Shown here piece after piece: positions 11,869-56,955 of a stretch of DNA of 64,000 bases. Source of the stretch: Pegea sp. RAD2-039 (taxonomy: Eukaryota; Chordata; Thaliacea; Salpida; Salpidae); NCBI GenBank assembly GCA_034620365.1, contig JAQGEQ010000192.1, positions 4,482,549 through 4,546,548 on the forward strand, in the 5' to 3' direction. Position 1 is the stretch's first letter; the number at the start of each line of letters is the position of its first letter. Position numbers and translations under genes: made by a program. The notes under the pieces were generated by a model, which worked only from the letters and a program-made list of their open reading frames with translations, was not told the origin of the DNA and searched no databases.

Positions 11869-14861
11869 TCAAGATGAAGGGACTGGTGATTGAACTTGGA
11901 TACCAGCCATTGGTGAATCTTGCTTCGAACGATTTGGAACAAACGCTGGTAACAAATTTGGGTCTGAAACTCTTAAATTTTGTGGCAGACGACCTTCATT
12001 CTGAAAATCCATGGGTAATGACGTAGTTGCTGACGTCATAAGTGAAGGAATGACACCGTAATGAAACTGAGATGACGTCAGTAACATTGATGGCGTCATA
12101 TCACCAGATTGATTTGGATGTAAATGACAACGTTGTGGTTTGTGAGTGGAACTTCCTGACGCTGATGACGTCACTGTCTGTTTATTGTTCGTTGAAGTTG
12201 ATTTTCGATGTTGCGGTGACGTCACGTTACTTCTAGACGCTACTGATGACGTCACAACTGACGTGGCTGTCAAGAGGGAAGTTGAAGAGAGTAATAAAGA
12301 TGGAATGAAAGCACCTGAAGGTTGAGATTCGATCTCTGATGTAGATGTGTAAGGTTGTTGAATGCCAGGATCAGAACGAGATCTTCCGTTTGAAGATGTA
12401 CTAGCAGCTGCACAAACATCACATTATTGATGACGTCATTGATGACGCCACTTACATGAAGAGCTGCTAAGATCTTGAGCAGCAGGACTCGAGCTTGTAT
12501 TTGTGGACCCGTCCGCTGTTTTCTTAAAAAACGAATGTTGAAGAGCGTAGAAAGGAGTCAGACGTTCTTTCGGATCATAAGTCAACATCCTCAAGATCAG
12601 ATCTGCGTGACACAGTGACGTCATCATCGCGTAAGTGACTTCATCATCAAGTTTAAACCTTTGAATTTAAGATAGTCTTGCTCAGTGTGACCAGACTCGT
12701 TGATCCTTCGACCTCCAGGTCCTCCAGTTTCCACTCCTAAGATCTCGTGAAGCGTTCGGCTTCCAGGGTCTCGGTACTGAATTCACAAGTATCAGATGAT
12801 GACGTCATCAACGCAAGACAGTCCCACTTACGTTCCGGCCCAGCGATTTCATCCGCCATTCGCCTGCCGGTGATTTTTCAAACATTTTCCGCATCTTTTG
12901 AGTTGATGCAGATTCTAGTAAATGTTTTGGAGGAATTCCTAAGACTTCGACGATCCTATTCATCTGATCTTCCTGAAAATCAACGAAACTAAAGATTGGA
13001 AAGTTGTGGAAGTTAGATGTAAAACCGACTTCATTTGCTCCGGCAAAGATCGGTTCCCCTGTATGCATCTCAACTAAGATACATCCGAGAGACCAGACAT
13101 CTATCGCCATATCATATGGAATTCCCAACAGAACTTCGGGGGAACGGTAGAAACGCGATTGAATATATTGATAAATCTACATAAACACAATTGACTAAGT
13201 CACAACTCCTCATCACGTCTAATTTGTCTTACGCGTTCACCGAGACGACAGGAACTTCCGAAATCGATGATTTTAATAGCACTTCTCTTCGGGTTGCAGA
13301 GTAAAATATTTTCTGGTTTCAAATCGCAGTGGATTATGTTAATTTCAGGAGTTGAGAGAAACAGAAGGGCCGTACACAACTACAACGAGAATTAGATGAC
13401 GTCATTCACATATGACGTCACTAACACGCAACAACTAACCTGAGAAGCGAATTTGCGAGTGAGATTAAGAGAGACTCCTCGAAAATTTGTATTTCGAAGT
13501 AAGTCATATAAATTATAAGATAATAATTCAAAAACAAGACAGAGGTGATTTCGAAAGTGAAAATGACGTTTTAATCGGACTGAAAAAGATGAGGTTAAAA
13601 TCCGAATGAGCAGAAGATGATGTGATTAGCTCACCTATGAAGTATTTATTATCAGAATCGTATCTGTTCATTAATTCCAGCAAACGAAATTCAATTAAAG
13701 CTTGCTTATAAAACGCTTTTTTGTTTTTAATAATTTTAATTGCTACATATTCCTGTTCCTCGTGGTCGTAAGCTTTTGCAACCTAAAAATAACAAATTAA
13801 TCATTTGAAATTACAAAGTAAATAGAGATCGTACTTGTCCAAAAGAACCTTTTCCGATTAACGAATCAATTTCATATCTATCATTCCATTTTTCACCATT
13901 TTTTATGATATAGTCATTATTTTTATCATCATAACCATCATTAAAAACGCGGCGTTCTTTTTGGGGTCTTGCTTCTTCTTGTGCTGCTTGCTGTGCGCGA
14001 CGTTTCTTCTTTGTGTAGTAAACTTCGTTGATGTGTTTATAAGTTTTAATTAAATCTACAGAAAGCTTGCGTGTAGGTGCTTCTAGAGAACTTCTCTTCT
14101 TGATTACTACCGAATCCTAAAAAATGAAAAAAGATGTTAATGACGTCACATAAACACGTTAATGACGTCACATAAATACGTGTGTAGTTATTAACTGGTC
14201 ACGTGTATATGGGATGCTGTTAACATCAAATGAACACGTGGTTAGTTAATAACATTATACAAACACGTGGGTATATGATGGCATCAAATAAACAAGCGTG
14301 TATTTAATGACGTCCATAAACACATGTGAAGATTATGACATCATATAGACACATAGATAGCTACCCACGCTAATGACATCATACACCCACGTGGGTAGCT
14401 AATGACGCCACATAAACACGTGGGTAATTAATGACGTAACATATGCACGTGAGTAATTAATAACATTATGTAAACACGCGAATAGCTAATGACTTAATAT
14501 GATGTCATTAACTACACACGTGTTACGTGACGTCATTAACTACACATGTGTTGATGACGTCACATAAACACGTGTGCAGTTAATGACGTCGTACAAACAC
14601 GTGGATAGCTAAGAACGCCACATAAACACGTGGGTAAGTAATGACGTAACATATGCACGTGTGTAGTTAATGACATCATATAAACACGTGTCCATTTAAT
14701 GACGCTGTATAGGCTATTATATAGTTAATGAAGTCCTGCAAACACTTGTAAAGTTAATGATATCACATATACACCTTAGACATAATTATGTCAAAATCAC
14801 AAACCTTTTTTAGAGGATAATATTGTTGTTGATTATTGGTGCTGTTGGTATTTTGTGCCAT
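11869..14861 (-). CDS. DYRK1A: DYRK1-type dual-specificity kinase (minibrain)
   Basis: Multi-exon kinase. Exon 1 (14861-about 14807) encodes [19 protein letters not shown]. The next exon has the basic [11 protein letters not shown] segment and the DYRK homology box [20 protein letters not shown]. The kinase domain follows: GKGSFGQ (glycine loop), [12 protein letters not shown] (lysine), [35 protein letters not shown] (catalytic loop), IDFGSS, the activation-loop [13 protein letters not shown] in which the second Tyr of YxY is autophosphorylated in cis, and [15 protein letters not shown]. After it come [11 protein letters not shown] and [21 protein letters not shown], typical of DYRK1A/minibrain. 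The Ser/Thr-rich tail includes GRSRSDPG, and the protein ends [16 protein letters not shown], matching the extreme C-terminus of vertebrate DYRK1A. The kinase phosphorylates Ser/Thr targets in nucleus and cytoplasm. Introns are mostly short; the first is about 700 bp and repetitive. Confidence 0.95.
14120..14800. repeat. DYRK1 intron 1: degenerate array of CRE and E-box palindromes
   Basis: The first intron of the DYRK1 gene is almost wholly a degenerate tandem array. Units of about 30-35 bp alternate a TTAATGACGTCA-like half with an ACATAAACACGTG-like half. They set the CREB/ATF octamer TGACGTCA (perfect at about 14125, 14162, 14527 and 14552, with one-base variants elsewhere) beside the bHLH E-box CACGTG (for example about 14200, 14237, 14390, 14418, 14572, 14597). 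Spacing is loose, so it is an old tandem repeat that has drifted. Whether it acts as an intronic enhancer is unknown. Confidence 0.85.

Positions 14862-56955: not shown

Follow-up and report, generated by a model that had tools for sequence, protein, structure and literature searches.

What accounts for the recurrence of a single palindromic octamer, TGACGTCA, throughout the gene-bearing parts of a 64,000-nucleotide stretch of the genome of the salp Pegea sp. RAD2-039 (hereafter the window)? We take the octamer to be the CREB/ATF consensus, and an animal in which a transcription-factor palindrome recurs across both introns and codons is not known to us. Here we ask how abundant the motif is, where its copies lie and how they are oriented, whether they look maintained, and which explanations best accommodate them.

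Materials and methods

The assembly comprises 105.7 Mb in 387 contigs, and the window forms the terminal part of contig C3. The sample analysed, of about 264 kb, consists of the window, loci placed regardless of the motif and others (L001-L008, L010 and L027) picked on account of it; the overlapping loci L002, L003 and L007 were excluded from counts. A self-trained, home-made gene finder, checked by Pfam, gave 31 models with 281 introns of modal length 50-59 nt, and one of the 31, antisense rDNA, was dropped. Pfam recognised five of seven submitted products (SH3-SH3-5-phosphatase; tankyrase, with Ank, SAM and PARP; kinase; RabGAP-TBC; ENPP-like). Motif positions were listed for one contig, C1.

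Results

The window holds 96 perfect copies of TGACGTCA, against a mean of 0.66 and a maximum of 3 in 100 dinucleotide shuffles and 0.55 expected under a first-order model, in close agreement with the original prediction of about 95 copies where chance would give roughly 0.5. No other 8-mer of the window is as over-represented under the first-order model, and in the GC-richer sequence of the sample the octamer and its overlapping words top the over-representation ranking. Genome-wide, there are 27,792 copies against 969 of the same letters reversed; the extended 14-mer TGATGACGTCATCA occurs 1,972 times and its reversed control not at all, while TGACGTCATCA occurs 8,239 + 7,990 times and its reversed control 34 + 45 times. 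TCA or TGA is present on at least one side of about 51% of genomic copies. Most window copies had been thought to have the form TGACGTCATCA, but in either orientation it accounts for 50 of the 96, a bare half. With 1.5 copies per kb against a genome mean of 0.26 per kb, the window is about 5.7 times richer than average.

These numbers are not produced by base composition. The 264-kb sample contains 241 copies where a second-order model expects 2.8; in windows of at least 30% GC with the motif masked (95 kb), Markov models of orders 1 to 4 expect 1.2, 1.2, 2.7 and 4.1 copies, and 174 were observed; and 98 kb of GC-richer sequence with arrays masked contain 164 copies, against 0.9-1.4 or 2.5 expected. 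The 17 unselected loci (165 kb) contribute 89 copies, 62 of them in locus L021, and the reversed palindrome was seen twice in the whole sample. A compositional artefact is ruled out by the Markov expectations in GC-richer, motif-masked sequence, and a tandem-repeat artefact was rejected because 201 of the 241 sampled copies are clear of both arrays and locus ends. Neither of the two outcomes that had been named as fatal to the original prediction was found: Markov models of the GC-richer sequence do not predict the count, and enrichment is genome-wide rather than limited to the window.

Within the window, 91 of the 96 copies fall inside the interval first proposed for them (12000..56620), but five lie upstream of it (110, 2299, 6618, 6792 and 7116). 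The features that carry them are the following.

11869-14382, minus strand: protein kinase gene model (Pfam Pkinase), presumably of DYRK type, as judged by eye
12031..14905, unstranded: first motif island, with 15 copies of TGACGTCA in and around the kinase gene (10 in introns, 2 in exons, the remainder upstream)
20115..26315, unstranded: second motif island, with 43 copies, covering a short gene (20057-20913), a repeat open reading frame (21807-23354) and a RhoGEF gene (exons at about 24.6-26.1 kb; PH match under Pfam's cut-off); the gene model at 22221-26056 fuses the repeat frame with the RhoGEF gene
22222..22813, plus strand: 30-bp tandem array built on the motif, within an open reading frame with VTSSEEDQNH-type repeats
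24569..24619, plus strand: predicted RhoGEF intron of 51 nt with two copies (24576 and 24608), the last of which ends the intron (TGACGTCATCAG)
25871..26001, plus strand: 24/48-bp tandem array built on the motif, in the second island
28222..28456, plus strand: two introns (28222-28279 and 28406-28456), with one copy each (28252 and 28412), of a gene that we take by eye to be EED and whose product gives WD40 in Pfam
30127..39038, unstranded: looser island of 22 copies, without a gene model
49351..50191, plus strand: five copies (two in introns, three in exons) in a gene modelled at 47358-50488
55533..56602, plus strand: four copies (two upstream, one in an exon, one in an intron) at an inositol-polyphosphate-5-phosphatase-like gene (model 55718-56955; Exo_endo_phos2)

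As had been reported, the motif is missing from AT-rich deserts and LINE stretches within the window, with no copy at 7124-12030, 14906-20114, 39039-49350, 50192-55532 or 56603-64000. The companion claim that minisatellites lack the motif is correct for the 52-bp arrays, but 12 of the 96 copies sit in other arrays (of at least three units). DNA resembling the 24/48-bp array (68-89% identity) recurs in 11 further contigs as well as elsewhere on C3, and a DNA search of the genome found no second copy of the RhoGEF region. All the one-base variants named earlier were recovered in the window (TGACATCA and TGATGTCA, 31; TGACGCCA and TGGCGTCA, 8; TGACGTAA and TTACGTCA, 12; TGACTTCA and TGAAGTCA, 12).

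Over the whole sample, copies per kb were 5.14 in introns of up to 90 nt (53 copies), 2.38 in longer introns (24), 1.45 in exons (51), 0.86 in 500-bp flanks (21), 2.85 in arrays (39) and 0.31 elsewhere (53). Short introns and exons reached 6.8 and 1.8 per kb in the window alone, and 27 and 5.5 in L021. No excess of introns over exons was seen in the 16 unselected loci other than L021, where short introns had 0.46 copies per kb (2 copies), longer introns 0.40 (2), exons 0.79 (11) and other sequence 0.09 (12). Gene bodies are above other DNA throughout; introns are above exons only in motif-rich loci, and the gradient between them rests on the window, L021 and the motif-chosen loci. At least one copy is present in 44 of 184 array-free introns of 30-90 nt, and within 500 bp of 30 gene models 16 copies lie upstream and 6 downstream.

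The motif content of short introns differs among 22 genes beyond all 5,000 of 5,000 permutations. In rich genes the motif occupies 5 of the 5 scored short introns (SH3/5-phosphatase), 9 of 16 (tankyrase, where two of the 16 are identical duplicates), 5 of 11 and 5 of 10; in poor ones it occupies 0 of 16 (ENPP-like), 0 of 9 (the gene of locus L015) and 0 of 6. The proposed confinement to gene islands therefore stands as a trait of some genes but does not extend to others, such as the ENPP-like and L015 genes, whose introns are empty. Judged by eye and from few genes, regulators (tankyrase, kinase, RhoGEF, RabGAP, SH3-5-phosphatase) are frequent among the motif-rich genes, and ENPP-like and ABC-transporter genes are among the motif-poor. 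On contig C1, 66 of the first 100 forward TGACGTCATCA, which span 2.47 Mb, lie within 1.987-2.245 Mb (0.26 Mb), and the first 50 14-mers, which span 3.87 Mb, include 20 in the same stretch and 14 in 3.53-3.74 Mb, the stretches totalling less than 0.5 Mb. Copies are thus concentrated in certain genes and, along C1, over stretches roughly 0.2 Mb long. Among 248 windows of 1 kb the motif count correlates with GC and with CpG observed/expected (rho 0.47 each, motif masked), and motif-rich loci tend to contain more tandem-array DNA (rho 0.54, p 0.02, over 19 loci of which two were motif-chosen).

Orientation and position give no indication of an inserted element. Relative to the gene, TGACGTCATCA is sense/antisense 24/27 times in short introns, 9/6 in longer introns, 15/14 in exons, 5/11 in flanks and 6/25 in arrays, and the balance in introns and exons makes a DNA signal more likely than an RNA signal. 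Position along introns fits a uniform distribution (KS p 0.26), with a dip in the first fifth (0.08). A role in splicing, through a TGAC branch point plus TCAG or through tiny introns, was rejected because orientation in introns is balanced and position along them unanchored. Carrying the motif does not go with greater intron length (50.5 nt with it, n = 40, against 53 nt without, n = 127, p 0.08; in L010, L021 and L027, 49 nt against 52.5 nt, p 0.03), which suggests substitution rather than insertion; the nine introns with at least two copies measure 46-53 nt, plus one of 70 nt. Flanking positions +1 to +3 hold 0.63, 0.52 and 0.32 bits of information, and none further out exceeds 0.11. T or C occupies +1 in 92% of cases and A in 2%, although A makes up 35% of bases; the preference is symmetric and graded, weakening past +3. 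Taken together, the lack of a shared flank, of strand bias in introns and exons, of splice anchoring and of added length makes an inserted element unlikely. Motif copies show neither the common flank past 3 bases nor the added intron length of an introner or transposable element, which was rejected on these grounds, and the suggestion of a target-site or transposition footprint is likewise not supported.

The exonic copies outside arrays number 51, against 3.8 when synonymous codons are shuffled within genes (maximum 9 in 200 shuffles), and are evenly divided between the two usable frames (26 and 25). Thr-Ser is encoded by ACG-TCA in 30 of 112 instances (5.5 expected) and Asp-Val by GAC-GTC in 30 of 78 (5.5 expected), and the dipeptides are themselves enriched (TS, 112 against 62.9; DV, 78 against 45.9). 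The excess of one-mismatch copies is 0.43-0.59 of the excess of perfect copies, where by our own arithmetic neutral steady-state decay would give a ratio of about 8/7. One-base variants are thus scarcer than such decay would give, yet recent spread or conversion copying could also yield more intact than decayed copies. The commonest variant is TGACATCA, the CpG-decay form. A second copy of EED, on contig C30, keeps both intronic motifs, but with 10 differences in about 1.9 kb of gene (97.8% over 2,163 aligned bases) the changes are too few for the pair to be informative on motif conservation. Overall, the pattern looks maintained, not accidental.

Discussion

We file TGACGTCA with the highly iterated palindromes, here in a eukaryote and without whole-genome spread. 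HIP1 (GCGATCGC) occurs throughout the genomes of cyanobacteria, within coding and non-coding DNA alike. Likewise, TGACGTCA is a palindromic octamer far over genome-wide expectation that occurs in coding and non-coding DNA, is strand-neutral and is used through synonymous codons, all of which supports the original prediction of a genome-wide iterated, HIP1-like palindrome. It differs in being clustered by gene and stretch, with empty deserts, in occupying spliceosomal introns as well, and in being a known bZIP site with an extended 14-bp form. Bacterial Chi and DUS/USS are also short over-represented words used inside coding frames, but these are not palindromic and are tied to recombination or DNA uptake. 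HIP1 is described in PMC4390886 as a highly iterated palindromic octamer far above expectation. A literature search with limited coverage of subscription journals returned no report of an iterated TGACGTCA in an animal genome, and TGACG is absent from the main text of PMC12221973.

Our preferred reading of the sequence, held tentatively and at somewhat less than even confidence, is that TGACGTCA and its extended form TGATGACGTCATCA may be a bZIP (CREB/ATF/JUN-class) site that is retained at the DNA level along the bodies of some genes, where it would serve as a chromatin or expression signal distributed over the gene. This lies close to the original suggestion that the octamer may mark genes or bind a structural factor. 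The two-fold symmetry and degenerate flank suggest a protein dimer, and the core carries a purine/pyrimidine flank preference that would suit a CREB/ATF site, bZIPs preferring such flanks. A CREB/ATF/JUN-class dimer would bind the motif as a double-stranded DNA site, and its binding within gene bodies may help to keep those genes open or expressed, for example in the germ line. Point mutation in short introns under weak constraint and in permissive codons would create the sites, weak selection on the total number of sites per gene would retain them, and local tandem duplication would turn some of them into minisatellites. A profile search of the genome gave 12 exon-wise bZIP_1 matches, a lower bound, so that bZIP genes are present; an expanded bZIP factor, for which a check had been proposed, is not indicated by these matches. 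This absence of any sign of expansion counts against the gene-body bZIP reading, as do the missing intron excess in the 16 unselected loci, the uneven orientation of TGACGTCATCA in flanks and arrays and the reliance on predictor-made rather than transcript-based gene models, and the 5' lean (16 up, 6 down) would also fit an ordinary promoter role.

The germ-line role is modelled on the intronic Periodic An/Tn Clusters (PATCs) of C. elegans. PATCs are not known to be a codon-level feature, and a PATC-like germline licensing element would be expected to concentrate in introns of germline-expressed genes. The motif is abundant in the introns of the window, L021 and the chosen loci and not in those of the 16 others. 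PATCs resemble it as a dispersed, non-coding intron signal, which according to excerpts of PMC7725773 protects from germline silencing; they differ as phased A/T runs (6-10% of the C. elegans genome) and not a palindromic protein site.

A bolder version of the gene-body bZIP reading seems to us doubtful: that this would be the first eukaryotic highly iterated palindrome, a gene-body site of about 28,000 copies, selected even through synonymous codons and marking stretches of genes roughly 0.2 Mb long with a distributed chromatin (for example, germline-licensing) code, possibly with E-box and X-box-like palindromes as further letters. If the motif is maintained, it would offer a gene-body chromatin signal that is defined by sequence and easily perturbed, would give HIP1 a counterpart among eukaryotes and would allow a direct test of collective selection on dispersed weak sites.

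The main rival, which we judge unlikely, is a recombination motif like M26 of S. pombe, one that would open chromatin and direct meiotic breaks or conversion, with GC-biased conversion shaping the islands. The higher GC and CpG of motif-rich windows, the commoner tandem-repeat DNA of motif-rich loci and the spread of DNA like the motif-based array to 11 other contigs are all consistent with it, but GC, genes and introns are confounded here. Hotspot sites are, moreover, expected to be lost by conversion and not to accumulate. M26, a CRE-like core (ATGACGT) bound by the bZIP Atf1-Pcr1 and active within a gene, originated as a nonsense mutation within ade6, yet a natural full TGACGTCA in ade6 is neither bound nor hot, and genome-wide iteration is not mentioned for M26 in the excerpts available of the same source (PMC9775316). 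Were the salp motif linked to recombination, CRE-type motifs would be tied to hotspot and minisatellite biology in an animal.

It is quite improbable that the copies are ordinary enhancer or promoter elements serving a stress or cAMP regulon that is unusually rich in sites. CREB/ATF cAMP-response elements have a core octamer identical to TGACGTCA, and the upstream lean around the 30 models would suit them; the E-box TCACGTGA and X-box-like GTTGCNNAGCAAC are iterated too, so several palindromic factor sites may be dense. Unlike such elements, however, the motif has 27,792 copies, many of them in gene bodies, at up to five per kb in sample introns and also in exons, and the 500-bp flanks on both sides (0.86 per kb) stay below gene bodies.

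Less probable again is upkeep of the kind envisaged for HIP1, in which a methyltransferase or repair pathway would recognise the palindrome without any transcriptional role. The palindromic, strand-neutral octamer in coding and non-coding DNA is shared with HIP1, whose abundance, in excerpts of PMC4390886, tracks methyltransferases for its core, and the salp genome has 11 DNA_methylase matches. Against this, deserts and the introns of many genes lack the motif, whereas HIP1 is genome-spread; a central CpG that was methylated ought to mutate quickly, but intact copies outnumber decayed ones; and seven of the methylase matches are unbroken frames (832-873 codons) that look mobile.

Debris of a mobile or tandem element or introner, its inserted copies surviving an eroded element, is very improbable, for although 39 of the 241 sampled copies lie within tandem arrays and some introns end in TGACGTCATCAG, the copies share no flank past 3 bases, introns with them are no longer, there is neither strand bias nor splice anchoring in introns, and the window's deserts and LINE stretches are empty.

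Other observations

The E-box palindrome TCACGTGA / GTCACGTGAC is likewise iterated, with 4,614 copies genome-wide against 237 reversed (in the window, for example, at 23996), and is more evenly spread on C1 than TGACGTCATCA, with 19 of 80 TCACGTGA in 1.987-2.245 Mb over the same 2.47 Mb. The X-box-like GTTGCNNAGCAAC, which we presume to have an RFX link, is iterated genome-wide (324 + 336 against 6 + 4 reversed), L021 included.

EED occurs at 27526-29708 of the window and on C30 near 1610000 (locus L028), the flanks diverging within about 100 bases, and the pair reads as a recent duplication or gene conversion; a blastn comparison of the C30 sequence beside the second copy (L030) with the window found nothing at E 1e-10. 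The seven DNA_methylase matches with unbroken frames of 832-873 codons lie on contigs C57, C249, C32 and C52, some of them near each other in both orientations, an arrangement suggestive of transport by a mobile element. Searches for an exact TTAGGC triple and for COX1 found neither, and genes such as tankyrase and, as named by eye, EED are of an animal kind.

Several tandem arrays also deserve mention. The 52-bp minisatellite of the window occupies 45004-46918 and, in opposite orientation, 63297-64000, where the second array reaches the contig end. An 11-bp array, AAGATCAGAAG, at 35500-35886 of the window has 35 copies at 98% match and is largely open in three forward frames. At 7852-8953 of L021 a 12-bp array, TCATCAACTACA, of about 92 copies begins directly at TGACGTCATCA, as if seeded by the motif. 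Lastly, positions 315-2856 of locus L026, at the end of C1, hold a partial rDNA unit (the 3' part of 18S, 5.8S and the start of 28S), which adjoins a tandem array and is cut off into AT-rich DNA.
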